Part shown: one piece after another, positions 16,136 through 50,800 of the stretch
How the letters are laid out: every line of letters starts with the position of its first letter
How positions within the stretch are numbered: position 1 is the first letter of the stretch
DNA from: Siniperca chuatsi
Taxonomy: Eukaryota > Chordata > Actinopteri > Centrarchiformes > Sinipercidae
NCBI RefSeq assembly: GCF_020085105.1
Contig: NC_058052.1
Coordinates: 8,479,733-8,543,732, forward strand
Length of the DNA stretch: 64,000 nt
Direction of reading: 5' to 3'
Notes under the pieces: generated by a model
Database searches by the model: none
Seen by the model: only the letters and a program-made list of their open reading frames with translations
What the model was told of the DNA's origin: nothing
Made by a program: the position numbers and the translations under genes

Positions 16136-16839
16136 GGTGCTTCATAACACCTGACATTAAAATTTGAGTGGACAACCACCATACAAAGGGCTTTACTGGT
16201 GTCAATTTCATGAATAAATTAGTAAAAAATCTATCACAACACAGATTTTAGGTTATGCACTATGTCACAGAATATAGCCCGCGGTAGTGCTACATGAAGC
16301 ATTTCAACCCTAATAAATGATCACCTTATTGTATTCTGTCTATAGGTCAGAACCTGATTTTTTGCAAATTACAGCAATACACTTTCAAAGTATGTTAGAT
16401 GTAAATGGAATTCATATGGACAGTTGGCGTTTTATCTTATCTTTTCCAGTGTTTTTCAATGCTGCATTAAAATGTGAAACCATAGACCACGGGCCAGTCA
16501 TAACTCTTCTCTTATATTGTTATTTGCAGGTGACAAAGAGATACAATCTAAATTGGAAACTGCTTTCACACTGAAAGCCAATAATAGCCCTCTTTTTATA
16601 ACAACAGCCCATTTTACGCAGACATCTGCGTAACAGCACATTTATCTGATGATTAACATCTTTCAGGCGTAAGAGGTTCTTCTTGAAATGCAGTGTATCC
16701 TGTACTGCTGGTTCTTCATGGGTGTTTTCCCATTTGTGACTTACGCACTGTAGTCTGCTGTCTCAGAGCAGGAGGAACTTATTTTACTCAGTAAGTTACA
16801 AATCAGTGCACATGCAGGACAGAACCAAGAGAAATACAA

Positions 16840-17481
16840 ATGTTGCACTTGCTGGGAGTAAGTAAAAACCTCTTTATACCTTATTTTCTTTTCTTTTAGC
16901 TGTGAGTAAACATCAGTGTCGACTAATCAAAGTTTTTATCTAACGAGGACTGTGACATATTGACTGGTGTTTTCTTTTAACTCAGACTGTTGTTGGCCTT
17001 CTCTTCATCATAATGTGCTTTTCAAAAGGACTCAAAGAGGTGAGTCAACCTTTACAGTGTTTTCTCTTGTGCATGATGGAATATTTTTTGTTTTAAAATG
17101 GAATTTGGATAAAGAATAAGGCATAATTCAACCTTTAAAAGACAGAAACAAACATACACAACTGCAATGTGACCTAGGAAGTAGGAAATAAAGTGGGATT
17201 TTCTGAAATGATGATTATCTTTGACAGGGAAATAAACCTCAAAAAGTACAACTACTTGAATCATCTGCCAACAACAAGAAGGTGAGAAATTATCCAAAGT
17301 TAAATTCTTGAATTATTCATACTAATTGAGATTAAATATTTTACATTCATCTCTTGAACAGAAGGATCTGAGTGAAGAAGATGTACATTTGTTGGCCAGG
17401 ATCCTTTCAGTTGGCTTGGTGGATGCAGACCCAAACTATCTCCACCATCTTAAAGGCTTCAGAGACTTGCATGGTGGATGA
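16840..17481 (+). CDS. Unassigned small secreted peptide precursor, 4 exons, 81 aa
   Basis: Exons 16840-16857, 16986-17039, 17228-17281 and 17362-17481 join in one frame; all three introns are phase 0 with clean borders (GTAAGT/CTCAG, GTGAGT/GACAG, GTGAGA/AACAG). The product has a strong predicted signal peptide (MLHLLG joined to TVVGLLFIIMCFSKG), a short basic spacer (LKEGNKPQKVQLLESSANN), a KKK cluster at a possible convertase site, and a 38-residue tail starting DLSEEDVHLLARILSVGL and ending LKGFRDLHGG. There is no cysteine after the signal peptide, no transmembrane segment and no amidation signal. The tail looks helical and amphipathic. Its layout recalls peptide-hormone precursors (signal, pro-part, basic site, peptide), but I recognise no family. 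The exons are too short to appear as ordinary ORFs. What is seen: splice sites, frame and signal peptide. Secretion and processing are inferred. Confidence 0.65.
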
Positions 17482-18696
17482 TTTTCTTTTAAAAAATCTG
17501 CCCACTTACAGTAATTAATGGACAAAACACAGCTGTTCCTGGATATATCGATGGATTTGTGATGACATCAAATCAAAGCTCTTCAGCATTGTGTGTTGGA
17601 TTACCAAATCAAGTTCTTCTTGCAACCCCTGCAGATGTTCCATGATTAATGGAAAAATATGCACTTTATTCAGGTTAAACACGACATTGGTAACGAAGTA
17701 GGAATGACCTCCCCCTTGCATGAAGGGGAAGTCAGTGGTGCTTAATATGGATCTTATCATTTTGATGGTGTATCCTTAATGCTTCATTTATTGCCTAACA
17801 GCATAATTTGAAATGTGTGAATATGTGAAAAAAAGAGCATCTGATATATTACATTCAACATCTGCCTCTTTTTAAATCAGGAAATGCATAAAATGAAAAT
17901 ATAGAAACTAGCTTTATTAGGCTTGTTTTGACGTTTAAATTGCATTATTCAAGTGTTTTGCAATGTTAAATACCACTTTGTTGAACTGTAAAACTAAACT
18001 AACATTTAGCCTACATCTGAGGTATTTGTGTTACATAATTTAGCTGTTGTAGGCTGTTTAAGTACAGAGAGCAATTAATCCCTTTAAAGTTAGACTATGT
18101 AACGTTTGCTTAACAGCGGCTACTGTGGCTACAATTGATTGTAATGGAATAATACTGGATAGATTTGAGCTAAATGCTAAACAGTAGTTTACTGTTGGCT
18201 AAACAGTAGTTTAGCATTTAGCTAACATGCTGAACTAATGTAACAGTAGCACAAGTGGAGAAGAATCATGTAGTTAGAAAAGTGACACTAATGTGTGTTA
18301 TACAGCAATATTTACCTAAGGTTTGCTAACTTTAGCCAACATTACCTTAAGCTACTTCCATAAACTACCCATAACGGTAACCAGACCAACAACGGCTGTA
18401 GCAGGCAAAACCCCTGACCAATGGTGCGTTTTATTGTTTATAAATTTAACTTTTCATCTGTAAAAGGAAGAATGTGTTAGTTCTTTTTTCAAAAGTTACA
18501 GTCTTGCTTTAAGGGATTATTGTTTGACCATTTTTATGTGGCAGAGAGGCTGAATTACTTTGCTTCTGCTGTCATTTTGTTCATGTCCTTACCTAGAGTA
18601 AAGGAGACAAAAAAGAGAGAGAGAGAGGTAGACAGACAAAGAGAGAGATTAGAGACAAATGAACATATGATCCTTTGTTTGTCTCCAGTGGTAAAC
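17482..18696. other. Intergenic region with MITE
   Basis: Between the convergent peptide gene and adtrp. It contains the 3' flank of the peptide gene, the MITE at 18079-18516 and a purine-rich GA stretch at about 18609-18655. No further gene is supported. Confidence 0.5.
18079..18516. mobile_element. MITE with imperfect terminal inverted repeats
   Basis: The left end TCCCTTTAAAGTTAGACTATG and the right end read inward as TCCCTTAAAGCAAGACTGTA are imperfect inverted repeats bounding about 440 bp of non-coding DNA. An internal perfect palindrome (GCTAAATGCTAAAC and its complement, about 18170-18228) gives a second hairpin. Rich in GCTAAC/GTTAGC words, as usual in fish MITEs. Confidence 0.6.
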
Positions 18697-21709: not shown

Positions 21710-23046
21710 TTTATTTACATATGGCATAAATCAATTATAAAAAGTATAACTTTCAGAGCACAATTCTACATACTGTTATGTAAGTTCTTTACAGTTTCAG
21801 AATTTTTTGTTTCAATGTACAGGTATGACATTAAGTTTTTATTTAAAAAAGGCACATTTTCAGAGAGAATTACAGGGTTGCTTTCAGCTAATTACAAAAG
21901 ATAATTCTATTTTGTCACTTACCCCTAGTGGAATCCAGCCATACAGGTAGCTTTGGCTTTACATGGCCAAAAAATACATTTAAACACTTAAAAAAGCAAC
22001 ATATGTTTCCTTACATTTGTTTGTTTGTTTCACAAATCATCTAAATAAAAATAATTAGGGGAACTTGGGTGAACTGACCTTTTAAGGCAACCAGGTACAT
22101 CTTGGAAAATTGACATTTAACCTCACTGGTTAATGTTCAATAGACAAAAGAAACAAAAAACATTACATACTGTATGGTGTGCAATGATTTACACAATAAT
22201 ATTGTAGGTACATCATGTTTAAGATGCAATTCTGTTTCAATCTCAGGTTTGTTCATCATTTTTCACTTGAATGTTTAATTCAGATTACAAAGAATTAGAA
22301 GTTACAATTTATTTACACCAGAACAATAACAGTGTGCATGGATATGAATTTATATATCGACTTGATTCACAAGCATGTAATTATCAACATCTTTGTTTAA
22401 CGTGATTGTGAAATACTACAATATAAACTACAGTATATTACAGTTTTACAGACTCAGACAACTTTAGATAATCAATTACACTTTAACATCACATTTTTTA
22501 ACATTAATGTAATAGCTGTCAGTGCCGGAAAAAAAGGCAAGGACAGACCTCATCACAGAAACAGCCTGTTGCAAACATTGCACTTAACCCATGCAGTCAA
22601 TAAAAAAATATTTGATTACACACATCTAGTCTCACACTTGTAGCAACTTGATGATTCACCCACAGTAAGAAGTCCATTGTAGGTTGTGGCACATGTAATT
22701 TGAACATCAGGTTTGTATTACTGGTAGTTTTACCCTTTAAAGTTCAGTGCCACTGATACAGGTACCCTGCCTCTTCTTTGCATAATATGCCTCGTTTGCA
22801 GAGAACCCACAGTGAAATCCCATTTCTATTAAATGTCTTTGGTGAGAAATTTTTTTGGTCATCATTTCAGCTTTTTATTTGATTTTGCTTATTTTTACAC
22901 ATAATGTATGCACTGATTATTCTCTCAACTTTCTTTGGATCCCATTTAAGGTGCCATGTGTGAAAGTTACAGACATAAAATGATTTACTACAGGGGCAAT
23001 CAAACATGCATTTAAATAGATAATAGTGGCAACGGTGTTATTGTAT
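21710..23046 (-). other. fam83h: fam83h 3' UTR, candidate poly(A) signal at its end
   Basis: AT-rich non-coding DNA follows the fam83h stop. A minus-strand AATAAA (TTTATT at 21710-21715) may mark the transcript end. An alternative is an earlier TTTATT near 22306. No ORF of note. Confidence 0.4.
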
Positions 23047-26000
23047 TCATGCCTCAAATCGACTGTAAACTTTCCTCTCCTTCCTCATGCTTTGAATCCT
23101 CTCCAGCAGCTTCTCACGCTCCTGATTAGACTTAGGCTGTCCTCTGCTGAGTGACTTGATCCCTCTTTCTTTCTCCCTTTCGGCATTTTTGTCAGCTTTG
23201 TCTTCTTTCTCATCATCAGTGACAGGAGACTCTTTGGTAGCCTCGTTCCTGCTTTGGCTATTAGCAGAAATCTGCTCTAGAAGCAGCTTTGTATCGTCTC
23301 TGAGGTTGCTGCTTGAGAGCACATTGGCTGTTGATGAGTGGTAGCGAGACTGGTTTGATTTTGGCTGCTTGGACTGTGGTGATGGAGCAACAACTTCATC
23401 TGATGTGGTCTCTAGCAGTTTGGAGCAGTTATTTTGCCTTACTTGGTCATTTGTATTCTCACTGCAGACCGATTCCTGTTTAGTAATTTTATTAACCTTA
23501 TTTGCGGCCTCTGTATCATCTGTTTTTTTCTCACCATTGTCAGGCATTTCAGGCTCTTTGCTTACTTCATTCTGACTGTCCATCCTACTATTTTCAGCAG
23601 GTACAGGTGGCTCTGAAGGGTGGGTTTCAGAAGTCACAGATTCAGGTGTTTTGCATGGCAGATCAGGCTCTGGTGGGACTTCTGAGGTAGGCTCAGTTGG
23701 GCTAGAAGTTTCTGTTGATTGGAGCATTGGAGTTTCATTTGAGTCTGTTGTAACCTGCTTGGGAAGAGAGTTCTTGTCTGAGGGGCTGTGCAATGCAGAC
23801 AATGTTTTTTCAGTCTTAGGGGACAAAACTACACCAACTGACTCAATTAGAGGAGAAGAACATGATACTATTTCAGCAGGAGTGGGAGTGACAGGTCCTG
23901 GCAGATTAAGTTCGGAGGGAAGGGTCGCTTGTATTGGTACATCTTGAGGAGATGCAGCTGTTTCTGACTGGGAAGCAATAGGAGTAAAGCCTGGATGGAC
24001 AGGAGAACTTGTTTCTGCTGTGGAATGCTCAGGTGGAAGGTCTGCTGGGGAGGGGGTAGGAGTAATAGTTTCATTTTGATCAGATCTGGATTTACTTTCC
24101 AGATCAGATACATTAGGTAAACATGACTCAGGCAATGAAGGGCTAAGGCCAGGAGGTGTGCTATCAGCTTTGACATCCTTTGATAATCCAAGAACCTCAC
24201 ATTCTTCTCCCACACCCTTGTGGTTTTCTGATTCAGCATCTTTTTCTGAAGGTGTAGGAGCACAAGATTCTTCAGAGTCTGTCTTTGTAGTGGACTGTAA
24301 TGAGGATGTGTTTGGCTCTGAATCAGCAGCATATGTGCCAGGAGAAATATCAGTTTCCACTTGTGCAGAGTCAACTGCTGAAGGGGTCTCAGGTGACGTC
24401 AATTGGGAAACAGAATCTAGATGAGCTTGGGTAGATTCTGTTTGGCTGATAGAAGAAGCTGTAGATTTTTCCGAAGTTTCCTCAACTGATTTGGAGGGTT
24501 CTCCTGGTGGGGGGCTGACAGATTCCTGTGCATTTGGGGACAATATGCTGGAAGTTAGGGCTGAGCTTGAGTCATCTGGGGTAACAATAAAAGATATGGG
24601 CTCTGCTGGAGTGGAAAGAGGAACAGAACTAGAGAGTGAAGGACTTGGACTGATCTGTGAACCAGAATCTGGCAGAATGTGATCAGAGGAAGAGCTTTGT
24701 ACTGATGGGTTAGAAGAGCTGAATTCTGATCCAGTGTGCTGTTCAGATAGCTGTGGAGAAGAGGAGATGCTGGTTTCTAACTGAACTGATTCAGGATTTT
24801 GGGTGTTAGAATCCAATGCAGAAAATGCAGAAGATGGTGCTACCTCCACTGGATTGGAAATGTGTGAGCTAGTGTGCTTTAAGGTAGAATCAAGGCATGG
24901 GCTTTCCCTTTCAGCAGTAACTTGTGCAAGAGAAGGAACATTAGCAGGAGTAGCATTTGTTGGTGTAGGTGGATGACCGGGGCTACTCTTTGTTACAGCA
25001 GAATTTGACAGTTTTGGTTCTTCTGGTGGTTTGCTCTGAGGTGCTTCTGTTTCTGCAGAAACAGGCAGAGTTGCTGCAGACTGGCTGTTCTTCAGCTCTA
25101 TCTTCTCTGAATCTCTGGTTTGTTCTTCTTTACAGCTTTGGGAGTTATTGGGATCATTCTTGACCAGACTGTCCTCTTTGGTAATCTTATCACTGCCATC
25201 TAAAGATAGACTGACTGACTCGCATGCATCTGTAGATTCTGTTTTTCCTGCATCCTCTGCAGTAGCATTTTTTTCCGATAAACCCTCAGATGCTGAAGTA
25301 TCAGCCATCTTTTCTGAGGTTTCTTTTGGTACAGGTTCCTCCTTTTTAACAGTAGTATTGTTTTTTAGTTCAGTTGGTGGTTTCATTGGAACCTTCTCTT
25401 TGCTCTTTTTAGCTTCTGCAGCCTTGGCAGATTTGCGTTTTGCTGCCAACTCTTTGAAAAACATGAGCCTCTTATCAGGATCACTCATATCTACATACAA
25501 TGGACTGGTGAGCAAAGATTTGGGTGGTTGTGTTGGTTGATCAGTTTTTGGCTGTTCAGCTTCAGAAGGCTTGGATTGGGGCATTGATGGTGAAGATGGT
25601 GCTTGCTCTACATCTGGCAGTTTTAATAACTCTTGTACTTCATGTTTTTCTGAAAGATCCTTTGAATTTTCGTCCTTTGATGAATCTTTATCATCTGCTT
25701 TACTGTTTCCATCACCTGGTTTGGATGAGTCAGTGGCAGAGTTATCAAAAGTGGCTGACCTTATGTAACGGCTCCATTCAAATGGTTCTCTAGACCTCTT
25801 TTTCCCCAAAACTTGAGAAACAAAAGGCAGTTTTGTCTGTTCGGCCTCATTTTTGTCACTTTCCTGATCCTGTTGGCCTGGAGCAGTTTTGGTATCTTGA
25901 GAAGTATGCTGCTGCTCCAGAGAGCTGAATATCAGAGAGGACCTTAACCTAGAGCTCCTCTGTACTGCTGCATTGTATTTTCTACGGAACGAGTCCTCCC

Positions 26001-29000
26001 TTTGAACAACAGCAGTTTTTGGTTCCTTTTGCTCGGCCTCCTCTGTCTTTTCCCCTTCAGTTGTGGATGATGATTCTAAAGGTGTTGGTATTTTGATTTC
26101 TGCTGCCAGTGCAGTAGGTTCATCAGGCAATTTCTTTGTCTGCTCTCGTGCAGTGGTTTTGGCATAACTTGGCATCTGACTTGCCCTGGGTATTGTAGGA
26201 ACCTTAAACTCTCTGACATTAGTGATTTTAGGGACTGATAAATCTATGCCTGGTGCTGTTTGCTGTATGAGGTTAGAGGGCTCTTCAAAAGGATCTGGTG
26301 CATTAGGTGGCACCGATGGCAGGCCTTCATCTCCTTGATTATCATATGCACTGAGGTATGACCTAATCCTCCAGTTTCTTAGCCCCTGTTTCACCATAGG
26401 ATCCTTGTGGACAGTGTTAGGCTCCTGGAAAAACTGCTTCTGATCAGTTGGATTTGAGGGGGTGGGAGACGTTTGACAGGCATATAGCTGGCCTAAACTC
26501 AATCTTCTAGGGTGAGATGAACTAAATGGTAAATCTGCTGCAGGTGGTAATTTCTCTGAGCCCTGGTCAAAGTCTACATTTCTGGTAGATGATAAATAGT
26601 TAAGCACAGGGTCAAAGTTATCAGGTGGTCCCATCTCTTGTGGTAATCCAGGTTCAGAATATTGATCTGCTGAATGATAGTCTTGGTTCCAGAACTTGTC
26701 ATAGCCACTGTAATCTGCTTCTTTTTCTGTTCCTGGTCCTGGATACAGCAGCTGCCCCCTGTGAAACTGACTTCCCTGGTTCTCAGGTTCTGGCATTCCC
26801 TGTTGCTGCAGGAATGGGTAAGAATATCTAGCATGAACACCTTCAGCATAACTGTGACGTTGGAAGGCAGGATTTTCCTTCATAGGCATCCTGGAGGGGC
26901 CCTGATCAAAAGACGGATCCATGCATGATTGCTTGGATGGAAACCTGCTGTACATATCTGCAGGGCCGTGCAAGGATTCCTGCCTTTTAAGGGGCATCAT
27001 TCTCCAATCCATATCCATACGTTCATCATAGGAATGTCTTGCCCATTCCTCTGGATGAGCGGTGTCCAATGATAGAAATTTCCTTGGCTCTCTGTACAGT
27101 GAAGTTATTTCACTTGTGAACTGCCTCTTTTGTAAAAGGCTAAAATCTTCCATTGGAGCGACCACATTTTCAATCATCAGCGGTTGGGACTGAGCAAACA
27201 GAATACGAAACTCTTCATCAAAGGTCGATACAAGCTGTCCAAGGAAAAGGTGTGCCATACAGCGGTGGAGCTTCTCAAAAGACCACATGAAGCTGGACAA
27301 AAGACATGACAATAAGTAAGAATTAATCAATTGCATGTTAGTTCATTATTCAAACAGATACAAACTGAATATATTCATAAAAACATAAATTAATCGCTTA
27401 AATCCTTATGTGGTATGAAGTGTAGAGGTATGGCTTTCTGTGGCAGTTTTGAATGGGCTCACCTGTAGTTTCCACTCAGCACAGCCCTGCAGTCTGTCAA
27501 CAAGAAGCGATCCATCATCTGACCTTTGAAGGACTTCCCTGAGCGGCAGTGATACGTGATGCCAGACACTGTTCTCACACGTAAAAACTGCAAGACACAC
27601 ATCAAATCACCTAAAGATGAATATTAAGCTGAAGCAGTACATATAGTGGTATTAATGTTTTAATTGCAATCCAAGCTAGGTGGCAGCATTGCGCTACCAC
27701 TTCCAAAATAGGGAAATAGAAAATGGCTGCATTTCAAGTTCCCTTTTACAGTAATATGCAGTGATTGCATTTTATATCAATGGGAAAATACTATCTATAT
27801 TTACTGTATATATCAGGGACAATACATTAACATCAATTTGATGTAAATGTGTCAGATTTGTTCAAATGGCTAAATTTAATCTGAGCAGGCACGTAAAAAC
27901 TGACAAACAAGATAAAGCTACACACAAGAAAAAAACATCATAGGCAGCCTTGAGGTTTATCGCTATGATATATATATATATATTTTATGATATATAGCAT
28001 GTGAGATTCACATTGCTGGACAAAGTAAGATGAAGGTGTTATTAAATAACTTGTTCACTGTTGTTTAATACATTTCTAATAGTTCTAATAGTTCTCTCAA
28101 GTCAGTTGCATGCCAGCCAAGTGATGTTCGGAAAGAAAAGGCTGATATGTTTTCTTTATTTGTAAGATGAGTCACCTCTAGCAACAGCTGAAGTTTACCT
28201 ACTGTTCTTAAGTTATGTTAATATGGATGGAATATATATATGGAATATATATATATATATTTTTTTTATTTATTTATTTTTTTGTTAATGTCAACTTAAC
28301 CCATGAAAAAAGACCACAACCAACCGTGTGTTAGTTTGTCTCTCAATACTTTGTGACTTCCCTACTCTGTCTTTGGCTCTCAGCCCCAAACCCATTTGTT
28401 CCTACTGAAGATGTAAATCTTTAAAAATGGGTCACAAATACAGTATATAGCTGGTCACTGTAGTATTTAGCAAATGTTTCTCAAATCAGGAGTAAGTAGG
28501 GCATTTGTTGGGGACTATTTTCAGCTGCAGATTAATACACATTTGGTGCTCTAGTGAGTATTTACAGCAGCAGAACAGTGACTATAGTGCCCATGTTCAT
28601 CGTAATAAAGGAGAACATGAAACCCAGTGAAACATTGTGGTTCAATAATATGTTTCAAAGAGTTTTTCAAGCTCTATGGCACAGAGAAATAATCTACATC
28701 AAACTTCAGATACACAGACAGTTCCCTGTTAGAAGGATCAAATAATTGTTGTTTTTGATCTTTTTGTTGCAAATAGGATTTTACAGAATATCACCATTTA
28801 TGCTTTAAGCATTTAAAAATCTACTGTAACATTGCATCAGCATATTTCATGTTTTTCAGCTTCTGTAGTCAAACTGTAGTCAAACTGAGATGAATATTAA
28901 AGTAGTTAGTTAAATGTTACTGCATTCATAACTTGGTTGGAACCTGTGTGCTATGGTGAGTGGGCTGAGCTGACTGGAAGTATATGAAAGAAAGGGAAAG

Positions 29001-29853
29001 AAATGTAATACAATTTAAATGTGTAAGCAGCCTTTTCTGTTTTGTTTATTGAATTGAATAGAATTGAATTATAATACAGCTTTATTACAGTGCCTGTACC
29101 TAAATGTACATTTTTTTAAAGGACTATGTACTCACTTGAATGCTCTGGAGATTGACCCTGCAGTTGGACACCATGTTGACGAAGTGATGTGCATTCTGCT
29201 TGTCTAGAATAATGTAGACGGCAACATTCCTCTTGGCAGCATTGAGAATATCCGCAAACATGTCAACATCAGTAAACATGTCCATCACTATAGCAATCAC
29301 CTGAAGACAGAAGAGACCAATGTAAAAACAACACTGTCAGGAGAATGACACTTCAAAGACAAGTTTGGCATGAAGTTTCCTTCCATCAAGAAAGTGAAAG
29401 ATCAACCTGCTGAGCATTCTTGATAAGTCGTCGGGCCTGCTCCTTGATACTTGGCATGTCAGGCTCAGGGGGGTTGACCAGAGTGGTGACCTCTGTGGGG
29501 ACCCCAATGAAGTGATGCAGCTGAGGCCAGCCAAGGTCCAAACCTGGGGCGTCCAGGTCAGAGTGAATCGGCCAATAAGTGTCTGAGGAGCCATCTACCC
29601 CAGTCTCTAGAAAAGGTCGTTCTGGATGGCTGCTCTGCTCAGGGACCTGAACAGAGCTCTGAATATAATGAAGCTCAGGTGAGGACAGGAAGTCCACCAC
29701 ATCTGCGTTTTGGAGGAACTGATAGTATCCCTCCAAGTCCTCCTCAATCAGTGCGTCAATAGCCAAGCGGTACTCTTCCCGATAGTGAGGAGGGAGGTAG
29801 TTGGGGTCCAGAGGGTTATCCCCAGCAGAGGAACACTGAGAGCGACGCGCCAT
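23047..29853 (-). CDS. fam83h: FAM83H, CK1-binding keratin scaffold, complete
   Basis: Exons low to high: 23047-27292, 27463-27587, 29136-29300, 29407-29853; 4983 nt, 1660 aa (human 1179). FAM83H binds casein kinase 1 and recruits it to keratin filaments; in humans, last-exon truncations cause amelogenesis imperfecta. The N-terminal DUF1669 (about residues 15-285, pseudo-phospholipase D fold) reads MARRSQCSSAGDNPLDPNYL, then DGSSDTYWPI, GLDLGWP, VMDMFTDVDMF and SGNYSFMWSFEKLHR. The F-x-x-x-F-x-x-x-F motif FDEEFRILF falls at residues 270-278, the same numbers as in human. The rest is Ser/Thr/Pro/Glu-rich and disordered, with a conserved patch (QRSSRLRSSLIF) and a conserved C-terminus (NLRDDTK..LEQISA, then RMRKE-like IQSMRKERKVYSRFEA). 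The chain ends right there, so the extra human C-terminal tail is absent. The start-codon exon has an acceptor 8 bases upstream of the ATG, giving a spliced 5' UTR. Confidence 0.95.
28237..28262. repeat. (AT)n microsatellite in fam83h intron
   Basis: Short AT-dinucleotide tract followed by a T-rich run in the 1.5-kb intron between exons 27463-27587 and 29136-29300. Another short TA tract lies at about 27969-27981. The rest of that intron shows no exon-like sequence. Confidence 0.5.
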
Positions 29854-29959
29854 ACTGTAGTCTAAAGAGAGGGCGAGGGTAAAAGGAGACATATGATTAA
29901 TGCACTGTATATAAAATGAATCATTTTCACATTACACATCTGTTTCAGTGTCAGAATAC

Positions 29960-30290
29960 CAGCTAGATAGTTCAGAATGATAATTCAATTGATCAAAAAT
30001 GAATCTGCAACAATTTTGATAATCAGTTAACTGTTAAAAATCCTTTTTCAAGCAAATATTTGCTGTTTCCAGCTTCTCAGATATGATTATTTACTGTTTT
30101 TCTATGTCTTATATGATAGTAAATTGGATATCTTTCGGTTTTGGACAGTTTGTCAAAAAAAAAACAAAAAAACACAAGACATTTTGAGGACATCCCCTTG
30201 GGCTTGGGCTCTGGGAACTTGTGATTCTCTGACATCTTATGGACCAAATGATTTATCGATAGAGAAAATGAGCATAGTTTGTTGTCTTTT
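29960..30290. mobile_element. Decayed hAT-type MITE
   Basis: Carries the same order of words as the better copy at 61766-62063 (AATCAGTTAACTG-like end, 'gctgtttccagcttctcagat', 'ctgggaacttgtgattctctgacat', 'gatttatcgataga'), but both terminal repeats are degraded. Lies in the first intron of fam83h. Confidence 0.45.
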
Positions 30291-35034: not shown

Positions 35035-37846
35035 GTGAGACAAAACCACAGCAGTAGAAACAACGGGCTGTTGTCAGTGTGGAATGTATAGACACACAGC
35101 AGCATTGAGGTGTGGGATGATTTCAGTTTGTGTTTAAACTAAGGTGTATTTGGATGGGCACGTCTGTTTTAAGCTGTATTTGGAGGCCATGTTGGGGCGA
35201 CTGCAACTTGGTGCTGATCTCGTTCCACACAATGAGTGTACTGCAGCAGCAGGTGTGCATTTGTATCTCATTTTGCTTGTCGACAGTGTTTGTGCATTCA
35301 GGAGTGCATTCTGCTCTGTGCATCTGTAGGTTATTACAAGATTTATAATCTCTTTTAAAAAAATCCTCTTCAGCCACATTTAGTTTCTTTTTCTGTTCAA
35401 GGTGCGTGTATGCTTGCGTGCACCTGCAAGGGGGTGCGCAATCACATTAGCATGCGTGCTTGTGTGTGCCTGTCATTGCATGTGGCAAGTCGCTACAGGA
35501 GAGGCTGCTCTTTGAAACAGTTGTAATCTGATTTTAAAAAAAAAAGGAGACCATAAAATGCTACGAGAAGGATAGGAGCAAAAGAAAAAAGAGGCCTTTA
35601 GTGACCTGTGAGATACACAACCAGTTGTGACCCCACCCAGACTCATGTTGGTTGAAGCGTTCCATAAGACGTTGTTTACACTTTCATCCTTTCAAAAGGT
35701 AAATGAACACAGATAGAGAATAGCTGCATACAATGACATCATAATTGCTGCCTGACAGCAGAAATGATGAAGGACAGGGCACAGCAACTGTGCTTTACAT
35801 TTTGCAATGCTGTCTTCCTTTCATCCGTTTTTTTATTTGCCTGATTTCTTTCCAGTTCTATTGTATTGTATCCTGTGGCACATCCTGCAGCTACAGCACA
35901 CACTGGAATGTCCTGCACTGAGTCAGGGACACAGGTCTCAGAATAGACAGCAAATCTCCCTCAATACATCTTAGATGCAAAGACAACACAATGGCAGGCC
36001 TTTTCCCTCGGCCTAAAGGGAGAGGTGGCGCAACTTAAACGAGAACGTGATCAATGCCGGAGTGATATAGCACACATCTGGATTTAATGATAGCATAGTT
36101 AATATAGGGAAATGTGCTTGACATCATAGTGATGTCACTTCTATCTTTGTGGGAGAATTGTATGATTCAGCTGCAGAAAGAGCCTACACAGAGCTGAATG
36201 AGCAGATCACTGAATGCAACAACTGCATAAAGTAGGACATGGATTTATCAGAGATTCACATTTCTGCCACTTGTTTGTTAGTTCTAAGCTGACTTCATAA
36301 TTCCAGTGACTTTTCAGGTTGTATTGTTTGCTTTTGTCTGCCTGCTGGTTCGTGGCACTGAAGTCGTGTTGGCAAAGGCTCAAAGAGCTGCACAACAAGC
36401 TGCTGAACTACTAAACTGTGCCCAGCTAGCTCTCACGGCTGCCTGGTATAGGCTTATGCTTTTGTATAAAATGTGGTATAGGTTACACAGAAACACCCAG
36501 TTTTATAGCTGAGCTTCCCTTGTTCAGATGCTGTCCTGCTATGTGGTGGGATTTGCAAGATCCAAAAAGATCCAGGTCAGAAGTATGATACTACTGCATG
36601 AGAGAGTGAACTTACTCTGTTTCTCTCCTTGAGTTTCAAACCCAAACATCAAAACAAGCTTTCTAAAGTTGAAATAAAATTATATTTTGTTTGACTGCTA
36701 CATTTAATCCACATTTGGATTGCCTTGTCTGGTGGAGTCTACTAACTAGGCTCCAACACCTCTCTGCCACAAAGACCCTAACTACAGATATGTAGCCAGA
36801 AAATCAAATCATCCTGGTTTTCTCAAATATGCATAATAATAGTCTATATTCTTTTCTGTTTCATTCTTAAATTCAACAAAAATATCGAATTGAAAATTTA
36901 GGATTGAGTTTTAAATATAGACTGGTAAAAACCCAGATTTATTTTTCACTTCCTGTCCTCAGTGTATTTGTTTTCTTTATGCAGGTACAGTATTTGAAGA
37001 CAGTGTGTTCCTCTGATGACTCTCATTAAGCCAGAACTATGTTCAGGTTGGACTGCATTGAGAAGCTCTGCCTGGTCATGACACCCAAACAGCACCACTC
37101 CCCGGATGGCCTACTCACAGCATTTTATTCTGTTGAGGTCACTGTGCCTGAGGCCAAAATTTAGCAGCCTAGCAACATTTTGGCACCTACTGTAACAATC
37201 ACAGAGGATAAGTATAGCGTAGATTCATTTTCATTTTAAAAATAAAACCATCCTCATAAAATATCACTGAGAAAATGTGTATTTTGGCAGATTTTGGACC
37301 ACCGCAGTTCTGCTGATAGAAAATCCCCAAAAAAGACATGTGGCTCTGTGAGGAATGCAGAGACATATGTGGTCTGGCCAGCTATGTGCACAGTGGAAGA
37401 TTACAGTGAATCCCTAATAAGTGAATGTGCTGAGGAAGGCAATGCAGAAAAACTGCGTAACAATTCAACTAATAATAGAGTTTTTCATGTTTTTCCCACA
37501 TTTTTCAAATAGTTTTTTATGTTAAAAGATCGAATTTTGTAATCTTTTTTTTCTGGCCATACTTAAGATAGTAAACAATGGAGATTAGCCATAATGGGCT
37601 AGTTTTTCTGGTGGGAGTGAATCCGCTTTACATACAAAGGTTTTGGTTGGAATGTCGTGCATATAGATTAATGGACCTGGAATGTGGACTTTTCATTGTG
37701 TTACTGTTATATATACACTAAAGTCTTCAATAGCTCACAATTGAAAGAGGCAGTAAAACATTGATAATACCTGGACAAAGATTAATTTAATATTTTTTCA
37801 AGAGATTAGCTTTAAAAAAATACAGTATATACAGTATATATATACT

Positions 37847-45175: not shown

Positions 45176-45457
45176 TTAAGGGAAAATAAAATCCAAACCT
45201 ACATGGCCCTGTGTGAAAAAGTGATTGCCCCCTAAACCTAAGGTTAGGCCAACCTTAGTAGCAACAACTGCAATCAAGCATTTGCAATAACTTGCAATGA
45301 GTCTTTTACAGCGCTGTGGAGGAATTTTGGCCCACTCATCTTTGCAGAATTGTTGTAATTCAGCCACGGAGGGTTTTCGAGCATGAACTGCCTTTTTAAG
45401 GTCATGCCACAGCATCTCAATAGGATTCAGGTCAGGTCTTTGACTAGACCACTCCAA
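45176..45457 (-). pseudogene. Inverted second copy of the transposase C-terminus
   Basis: The minus strand reads [20 protein letters not shown] and on through the end of a Tc1 transposase, followed by element tail sequence. It duplicates, in opposite orientation, the region at about 46190-46400. It is part of the element's left arm, not a gene. Confidence 0.8.
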
Positions 45458-45619
45458 AGTCTGTCAGCTTCACTACAATGCTGTATCAAATTCACATCTG
45501 AATCCATATAAGGTTCGGCTATTATGCAACAGATGTTGAATAAACATTTGCAAACAGTTTGCTCAACTTATCTCCACTAGTCCACTCCAAAGTCTTCATT
45601 TTGTTCTTCTTCAGCCATT

Positions 45620-46240
45620 CAGAGGCCCCACAACAACATCCAAAGAACAGCAGGCCTCACTTGCTTAAGGTCAGTGTTCATGACTCCACCATAAGAAAGA
45701 GACTGGGCAAAAATGGCCTGCATGGCAGAGTTCCAAGACGAAAACCACTGCTGAGCAAAAAGAACATTAAGGTTGGTCTCATTTTTGCCAGAAAACATCT
45801 TGATGATCCCCAAAACTTTTGGGAAAATACTCTGTGGACTGACGAGACAAAAGTTGAACTTTTTAGAAGGTGTGTGTCCCATTACATCTGGCATAAAAGT
45901 AACACTGCATTACAGAAAAAGAACATCATACCAACAGTAAAATATGGTAGTGGTAGTGTGATGGTCTGGGGCTGTTTTGCTGCTTCAGGACCTGGAAGAC
46001 TTGCTGTGATAAATGGAACCATGAATTCTGCTGTCTACCAAAAACTCCTGAAGGAGAATGTCCGGTCATCTGTTTGTGACCTCAAGCTGAAGTGAACTTG
46101 GGTTCTGCAGCAGGACAATGATCCAAAACACACTAGCAAGTCCACCTCTGAATGGCTGAAGAACAACAAAATGAAGACTTTGGAGTGGCCTAGTCAAAGT
46201 CCTGACCTGAATCCTATTGAGATGCTGTGGCATGACCTTA
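45620..46240 (+). pseudogene. Tc1-like transposase remnant
   Basis: Plus-strand frames show second-HTH-like VSVHDSTIRKRLGKNGLHGR, then LWTDETKVELF with the first catalytic Asp, VMVWGCFAASGPG, and after a frameshift with an in-frame stop (46093-46095) the [11 protein letters not shown] block with the second Asp, and [18 protein letters not shown] with the third acidic residue. The first DNA-binding helix region is replaced by the inverted copy of the 3' end. Not functional. Confidence 0.8.
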
Positions 46241-47807: not shown

Positions 47808-50800
47808 TCACTGCTGTGACAGAAGGGCGTTCCTGTTGGCCTTCATCTTCTCGAGGCGCTTTACTAGGTGGTTGTTGGTCATCTCCATCTCCTCTATCTT
47901 ATCTAGAGCTGTGCGCAGCTGTGGGGGAACAGAGGGGAGCAGTTACATTCAGCCTGCTAGTGTTTCATATAAAATGCAAGCCTGTGTCTTTACCTCTCTT
48001 TGAAGTTTCCGTTTTTCTGCCTTAAGTTCATCTTCTACTTTCTCTGAGTTGTCTGCTGATGCCTTGTACCTGGACACTTGCCCTTCAAGTCTGGCAATCT
48101 GGAAAACACACAAAAGAGTATAATTCGGTGAGTTAAGAGCTCTAAAACTTACAACTCTATAATTTAATGTGAGCTATTATTTAGTTTGACAAGACATTTC
48201 TTTTTAAACTTACATTTTGTTCCATTGTACCCATTTCCTGCTCTGCCTTGGAAAGCTTGAATTTGTATTCACTAATCTGTCTGTTGGCATCTCCTTCAGA
48301 GAAAAACAGAAACCAGTTGAGTTTGTAATACATAAAATGTTCAAAAGATCATTTCATGTGTGCCGATACATAATTGTAAGGCCAACTTACTCTGCATCTC
48401 AATAAAGTGTAGGTCTGTACCGTTCTCCATCTTCTCCCCGTCTGTGTATGCACTGTCCATCTTTGAGTGTTTCTGTCTCTCCTCCTCCAGCTGATTCTTC
48501 AGCTTCCTGATCTGAGCCAAGAGTTCATCTTTCTCCTCTGCCAACTTCCGTAGCCTGACATCTACAAACCAGAGGGAAAATACATTAAACTGATGCAATT
48601 TACCGTGACATGCAGGATAACTTTGTGTGTTACAGTTGCAGGAGGGATATATTTTCAGTTCTCTATGGACAGAAACAATATCTCTGTCTCACCCAGCGGG
48701 CCCTCTCCTGCAGACTCCAGCACCTGAGCGGCCTCCTGGGAGACCACAGTGATCCCTGAGGACTGAGGCTCATGGTTGACATCTCCATTTGGTGTGCCGT
48801 CTGGGATGATGACGAGCCCATGTGTCTGTGGTGAGAGAACACACATTACTGAGGACTGGCTCCACTCTGGCAAAACCATCACAGTACAGAGGCTATACAC
48901 TGATGTCACTTTTTCATATGATACCACCACCCTCACCACCCCTGAGTGACCAAACAAACCAACAGTTGGCCGCTACTGAATGGATAGAGCTTCAATACCA
49001 AAAGGAAAACAAAACATGTGAAAAAGTAAAGGCCACTGTAAATGACAATGATCTGTATGACATACTGAACAGTCATCGCTCTGTGGATGTTGAAATGTAT
49101 GGATCCACCAGTAGACTTTGAGACTGAGACCAACCAGCCTTTCCTCTCTACCTGCAGTGAATGTCTTCACATCAGCAGCAGAGGGAGGAGGACAGAGGAG
49201 AGGATGAATGATGCCATAGGACTGTTAGCCAGTTTTTTGTAAACAGTGGAGTCCAAGGGCTTCAGATAACCATTAGTTAGTCCAGCAGTATGTAAAGTTA
49301 TTCTAATGCTTTTTGTAGCCTATACATGCTTGTCAAAAGTAGATAAGGTCTGGCATTAATTAGTCTACAGAGTAAAAAAAATAAACTAAGGTTATTACAA
49401 ACAATTTTACGATATTTTCTAGGGATGGTGGATGGAAGGCTCTCTAAATATTGGTGTTGTATTAGTAAAATAACTTGTCAGTCTAAAAATTTGTATTTAT
49501 TAAGTATGAATGTTATCAGTTATCCTGACACACATGTATATATGTTCATGTTCATATAAGTAGCTTAACACTGGGGGCCTGACGTTGCATTAATCAAAGC
49601 CTGAAGGCACAAACTAAAGACCCCTTGTCCTATTTTAAAGCAGGATGTGTCAGGATTTGCCTGATCAAAAATAATAAGAACTTTGGACAGGTTTGTAAAA
49701 ATACTTGAATTATATTACAAGTCTAATTTTCAGAAAACCATGTGGTGCCTTACTTCACAATTCTTATTTTAGCCTTTGGCAGTCTATAAAAAATTATATT
49801 CTTTCTGAATCTGCTGTATAGTCATTTGCACAACAGTTCCTGTTAATGCACAAAAGCAGATGCTGACTGTTGTGTTTGCCACTGTGGGATGTTGCCGTGG
49901 TAACGTCTATGTAAAGTGACTTTACGCGCATACCCTCTAAACAACAAATCTCCCAGTAATTTGATATAGTACACTATAATCATGGTCAAGTAGCGATTAA
50001 CATGTACCAAATGAGTAATGCAAAACCAGCAAGTAGTGAAAAAGTTGACAAGAAAATAAAATGGAAAGAAAAACGAAGAGGCAGAAGTGAAAAGTACAAC
50101 AAAGTAGCAGGTTGGATAGCATTAACTGGCTTAGTTCCAACCAAAAGGAAAAGTATAAAAAGTAGTTTTGGGCCAGCAACTCATTCCTCTAACCTTGGTT
50201 TTTCTTCTGGGACTTTAGGAAGACCTACCTCTACTGCTTTGGCCTTCCCCTTGATGTCAGCGAGCTCATCTCTGAGCTCATCCCTCTCATTCCTAATGCA
50301 ATCAAAGTACTCTTTCTGTCTCTCTAGGGCCTGGCCACACACACGAGAAAAAACAAGAGAGAGGAGAAGAGGCAGAAGAGAAGTTGGATAGACTCTGGAC
50401 AGACATGCAACACCACAAGACATCTTCCATGCACAAACATGCACATCAAGCTAACAAGGACATAGAAACAAACAATACACAGAGACGAGAACAAGGCTAC
50501 ATGCTAACAGAGGATGTTATTGGGAAAAGTTAAGAGGTGTGGTAGAGCACAGGGACTAATGATATAGAGTCTGTAAGGAAGGTAGATCTTTTTGACTGAA
50601 ACTACATACAAATATGATGTTTCCATCATTACGAGTCTGACTTCATCACCTAACAAACTAACTGATCCACAGGTGGAACCATGCATGTCATGCTAGAATA
50701 TATGGATATGGATAGCATTTCTCTTTAAGTTTACAAGACAATCTTAAACAAAAAGATTTTTATTTCACAGGCTGTCCACTGCAGGCCTTAACACAGTGCC

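Follow-up and report, generated by a model that had tools for sequence, protein, structure and literature searches.

Anatomy of the candidate gene

We analysed a 64,000-nucleotide (nt) stretch of the Siniperca chuatsi genome (contig NC_058052.1, positions 8,479,733 to 8,543,732; hereafter the window), in which an original prediction, made from the letters alone, had placed an unassigned gene, built of four exons and thought to encode a short secreted product, as the best candidate there for something undescribed. All four exons were reproduced on the plus strand at their predicted positions and lengths (18, 54, 54 and 120 nt), with GT-AG borders and phase-0 joins that yield a product of 81 amino acids (aa). 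Exon 1 (coding part, 16840..16857) encodes MLHLLG, comprising the start codon and the first part of a leader, and ends at the donor GGA/gtaagt. Across intron 1 (16858..16985; 128 nt, phase 0), exon 2 (16986..17039; donor GAG/gtgagt) supplies the remainder of the leader and then a Lys-containing flank (TVVGLLFIIMCFSKGLKE). Intron 2 (17040..17227; 188 nt, phase 0) is followed by exon 3 (17228..17281; donor AAG/gtgaga), in which GNKPQKVQLLESSANNKK would serve as a spacer or pro-segment. Intron 3 (17282..17361; 80 nt, phase 0) falls inside a KKK site, so that exon 4 (17362..17481) opens with the third Lys, continues with a 38-residue tail, DLSEEDVHLLARILSVGLVDADPNYLHHLKGFRDLHGG, and closes with the stop codon TGA (17479-17481).

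The KKK site and the cysteine-free tail described at the outset are both present. KKK occupies residues 41-43 and is split as KK/K by the exon 3/4 junction, and the sole cysteine of the product is residue 17, within the leader. The 38 residues after KKK include seven acidic residues and three K/R, making the tail acidic overall. A search for N-glycosylation sequons in the 81-aa product found none. The leader satisfies a crude rule combining a hydrophobic core with the residues at -3 and -1, with possible cleavage after residue 17. Secretion is plausible on this basis, but the leader's charge pattern fits an N-terminal membrane anchor too. For the exon-4 stretch (39 residues), AlphaFold2 run on the single sequence modelled helices at 5-22 and 26-37 (mean predicted local distance difference test score 75.1, predicted template modelling score 0.36). 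As single-sequence models favour helices, this model carries little weight.

Coding signal and exon-chain statistics

Exons 3 and 4 together show coding-like periodicity, with a score of 6.2 bits where the null gives -3.5 +/- 4.0 (p = 0.005), and exon 4 alone gives p = 0.010; these p values are approximate because the null pieces overlap. The measure, which lies outside the leader criterion, scores position-specific base composition and was trained with pieces of exons from genes nearby. The null consisted of stop-free pieces from the presumed noncoding stretches of the window, and one segment was skipped in the training set for the codon and composition scores. GC content is 42% in the exons versus 30% in the introns.

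How often such a chain of exons arises by chance was gauged by searching for chains of four exons that begin with a leader-like stretch and encode 60-150 aa; each chain's score combined its splice sites with its codon usage. Searches covered the window, dinucleotide shuffles of it, and 28 real 10-kb control loci (280 kb; 20 from elsewhere and 8 flanking the window). With introns of up to 250 nt, two chains in the window score at least 20: the candidate at 23.6, and a chain at 48181-49076, which scores 37.3 and sits where lrrfip2-like coding frames lie. None of 160 shuffles (0/60 and 0/100) produced a compact chain of equal score and leader, and the 28 control loci held one equal chain, whose product by eye resembles fibronectin-type coding sequence. 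Raising the limit to 400 nt gave an equal score in 1 of 100 shuffled windows and at four places in the control loci. When the leader also had to score at least 3.0, no shuffled window qualified at any setting, and the control places numbered 0, 0 and 1 at 250, 400 and 1,000 nt. These favourable figures are optimistic because the limits (score cut-off 23.5, leader cut-off 3.0, introns to 250 nt) were all set with the candidate's values in view. The candidate is exceptional only at the compact setting, and compactness therefore carries the chance argument; the small chance originally estimated holds for compact chains but not once introns of up to 1,000 nt are admitted.

The splice sites were scored with a matrix typed as a consensus from general knowledge. 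Candidate donors score 2.0, 8.0 and 6.7 bits and acceptors 3.5, 1.2 and 2.0 bits. For comparison, junctions in the neighbouring herc4-like and adtrp-like genes were placed by best fit for 10 of 11 exon pairs (one was not located), giving donors from -4.3 to 7.4 and acceptors from -2.6 to 4.2. Two of the ten look misfitted, both with negative donors, and without them the neighbour donors run from 0.9 to 7.4 bits. Choosing best-fit junctions tilts this comparison towards the neighbours. The candidate splice sites are moderate and inside the range of the neighbouring genes' introns. To call them consensus sites, as originally done, is generous, although GT-AG holds throughout.

Copy number and genomic neighbourhood

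The 642-bp locus matches itself alone in the 719-Mb genome (65 contigs), which rules out a dispersed repeat. When the 81-aa protein was used as the query against the same genome at E <= 10, with the best candidates scored, three matches were returned, all of them exons at the candidate locus; among these best-scored candidates there was no paralog. Downstream of the stop codon, the nearest of the polyadenylation-signal variants sought is CATAAA on the plus strand at 17887..17892, a possible non-canonical signal.

To recognise neighbouring genes, long frames were read by eye across the window and the 40 kb flanking it on either side, and some of these frames were tested against Pfam. The candidate lies between a herc4-like gene and an adtrp/AIG-like gene, both on the minus strand. 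Pfam assigned RCC1 repeats and a HECT domain to the former and Far-17a_AIG1 (E = 3e-55) to the latter. Farther right, it identified a fam83-like gene (SACK1), mlh1 (Mlh1_C) and lrrfip2 (LRRFIP), and the left flank holds a piece with a SIR2 domain. The domains themselves were tested, and herc4, sirt1 and fam83H are presumed gene names. Two of eight neighbour pieces submitted to Pfam, one herc-like and one mlh1-like, gave no match. An Rfam scan of the whole window at the gathering threshold returned no matches.

Several other features were observed in this neighbourhood. For the AIG family, the only match listed outside the locus at E <= 0.001 is G000:C16:25198951-25199097 (53% identity, E = 1e-8). 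Frames of a Tc1/Tc3-type transposase occupy 45179-46092, between the mlh1-like and lrrfip2-like genes (HTH_Tnp_Tc3_2, E = 7e-14, at 45544-46092). The left flank contains a repeat in three copies (L027 and L026; joined positions 17739, 19669 and 21599), which agree to at least 98% across a 100-base probe, are spaced 1930 bases apart and have long open frames on both strands. Similar frames occur near 22904 (L026) and at 35514 and 36715 (L025); the two frames submitted to Pfam had no match. Also in the left flank, on the minus strand (joined 24713-26608 and 26996-30139; L026 and the start of L025), an open frame of 632 aa containing numerous GAPQQAA-like repeats adjoins frames that by eye resemble the reverse transcriptase of long interspersed nuclear elements. 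The right flank carries a 635-aa open frame on the minus strand (L031:643-2547).

Comparison with known families and peptide systems

The 81-aa product had nothing listed in Pfam at E <= 10 and no match in NCBIfam. A search of PDB gave one match, to the chromatin remodeller ISW1 (E = 1.3), which we take as chance. Pattern matches numbered 24 among viral contigs and 374 among prokaryote contigs, with no confirmed relatives in either set. Tail fragments (one of 14 letters and five shorter) retrieved no paper from the full-text literature, a corpus that leaves most subscription journals outside its coverage. Likewise, among papers on synteny and new fish peptides, including PMC8394805, PMC4992253, PMC12714231 and PMC3009671, none could be tied to the candidate gene. 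For Pfam, NCBIfam and PDB, the statement that the sequence belongs to no known family stands. Fish annotation may well already include the gene as a locus without characterisation.

By eye, the tail resembles ligands of class B hormone receptors, with LHHL as in PTHrP and HLL as in CRH, and we therefore tested it by local alignment against shuffled tails (3000 shuffles per hormone; the PTH and UCN1 letters were typed and unchecked against records). The resulting p values were 0.11 for PTHrP, 0.42 for PTH, 0.25 for TIP39, 0.12 for CRH and 0.18 for UCN1. Because shuffled tails score in the same range, we do not claim membership of the PTH or CRH type. Like PTH, PTHrP and TIP39 precursors, the candidate would have its leader and pro-segment on the exon or exons ahead of one that opens at basic residues and carries a cysteine-free, predicted helical peptide in the range of 34-39 residues. 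The border ahead of the tail agrees with the exon layout of that family, but the candidate's leader and spacer are spread over three exons, and it has KKK where the family has KR or RR. The sole match to PTHrP, FLHHL against YLHHL, is not significant. This family was rejected, with no significant similarity and no Pfam match.

With CRH/urocortin precursors the candidate shares a basic site followed by a peptide of roughly 38-41 residues, a C-terminal Gly compatible with amidation and a short HLLxxxL match. The CRH family has its coding sequence in one exon. Membership was rejected here too, since similarity over the CRF core is not significant and Pfam gave no match at E <= 10. A cationic antimicrobial peptide was likewise discarded, the tail having seven acidic residues versus three K/R and an amphipathicity not above that of shuffles. 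Convertase sites of the KK or KKK type are less usual than KR or RR. The peptide-hormone layout that was originally noted thus survives as an analogy, with a less usual processing site and no significant relation to any of the five class B peptides.

Interpretation and alternative explanations

Compact-chain statistics, the periodicity of exons 3 and 4, the single genome match and neighbour-like splice sites together support a real short multi-exon gene, and we regard the candidate as probably a true coding gene. That it is specifically a compact single-copy gene whose 81-residue product is processed into a small secreted peptide is our preferred reading, to which we give an even chance. Several observations weigh against it. 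The Kozak context of the start codon is weak, with C at -3 and T at +4, and an out-of-frame ATG lies at 16812, 28 nt upstream. Neither AATAAA nor ATTAAA was found on the plus strand between the stop codon and 19057 (about 1.5 kb). Codon usage is neutral (0.17 bits across the coding sequence), and 9% of noncoding draws are at least as GC-rich as the exons. In the leader, K/R are absent ahead of the hydrophobic core and lysines follow it, and the amphipathicity of the modelled helices does not exceed that of shuffles (p = 0.19 and 0.36). With introns of up to 1,000 nt, an equal chain score came up in 4 of the 60 shuffles and at 17 control places, and at least 18 listed chains in the window (at least 9 on the plus strand and 9 on the minus strand) outscore the candidate, most of which fall by position in known genes. 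On splice score alone at the same limit, 16 window loci were listed at 23 or above (7 on the plus and 9 on the minus strand); the candidate was absent from that listing, probably since length limits were applied just to the best extension, and the scan was superseded by the codon-scored scans.

Some of these points feed an unlikely but not negligible alternative, in which open frames and splice-like sites align by chance in noncoding DNA, or a spliced noncoding RNA is made that encodes no functional peptide. Neutral codon usage, the weak start context with its upstream ATG, the absence of a canonical polyadenylation signal over the stretch searched, and the frequency of equal chains at the widest intron limit all agree with it; the empty result from 160 shuffles at the compact setting and the periodicity of exons 3 and 4 argue against it. 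The strongest structural rival, which we hold to be somewhat improbable, is a membrane microprotein whose N-terminal anchor remains uncleaved and whose helical tail lies in the cytosol and regulates a partner, KKK then being no processing site. It owes this rank to the leader's charges, with no K/R before the core and K20, K23, K27 and K30 just after it, as the positive-inside rule expects, and to a best 19-residue hydropathy of 2.25, sufficient for a membrane segment. The lack of an N-glycosylation sequon and the tail's predicted helical hairpin are compatible with it as well. Single-pass membrane microproteins as a general type similarly combine small size, a hydrophobic stretch at the N terminus with a basic flank behind it, and a short helical tail, but the candidate matches no specific family of them in Pfam, PDB or NCBIfam. 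The uncharged core is short for an anchor (about residues 4-19), and its -3/-1 residues are acceptable to the crude cleavage rule.

A third alternative is that the gene is orthologous to that of a known hormone, for instance of the PTH/TIP39, CRH or secretin type, but has evolved too fast to be recognised from the sequence of one species. We consider this very unlikely, given the non-significant alignments to PTHrP, PTH, TIP39, CRH and UCN1 and the empty Pfam result. For secretin, the neighbourhood appears to be other than the candidate's: genes of the herc4, SIR2, adtrp, fam83 and mlh1 types are located elsewhere in the human genome than the secretin locus. That locus was traced from human chromosome 11, according to a figure legend in PMC12714231. 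What favours such an ortholog is precedent, as zebrafish secretin (si:zfos-2372e4.1), a highly diverged and unannotated fish hormone gene missed by earlier searches, was reported in 2025 through tblastn bridging via gar together with synteny (PMC12714231).

Under the secreted-precursor reading, the leader encoded by exons 1 and 2 would carry the chain into the endoplasmic reticulum and be removed near residue 17-20. That the product does enter the secretory pathway and is cleaved as a precursor is, in our estimate, as likely as not. Exon 3 would then contribute a short pro-segment, and a proprotein convertase may cut at KKK at the exon 3/4 junction. Exon 4 would thus yield a 38-residue acidic, cysteine-free peptide with two short predicted helices, whose C-terminal Gly is a possible amidation substrate. 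Once transcribed, translated and released, the peptide would act extracellularly, perhaps as a receptor ligand; that the product is a processed signalling peptide we put forward as a doubtful, tentative proposal. Quite improbable, in our view, is the further step to an undescribed lineage-restricted (for example teleost) hormone family, in which a 38-residue helical-hairpin ligand has its own receptor. Such a family would have escaped annotation because no paralog is detectable, the mature peptide is devoid of cysteines and the sequence resembles no known hormone.

Annotation readily overlooks small secreted peptides. If the candidate is just an uncatalogued microprotein, its interest would be modest; if it is expressed and conserved, it would be a concrete candidate ligand for a fish orphan receptor.
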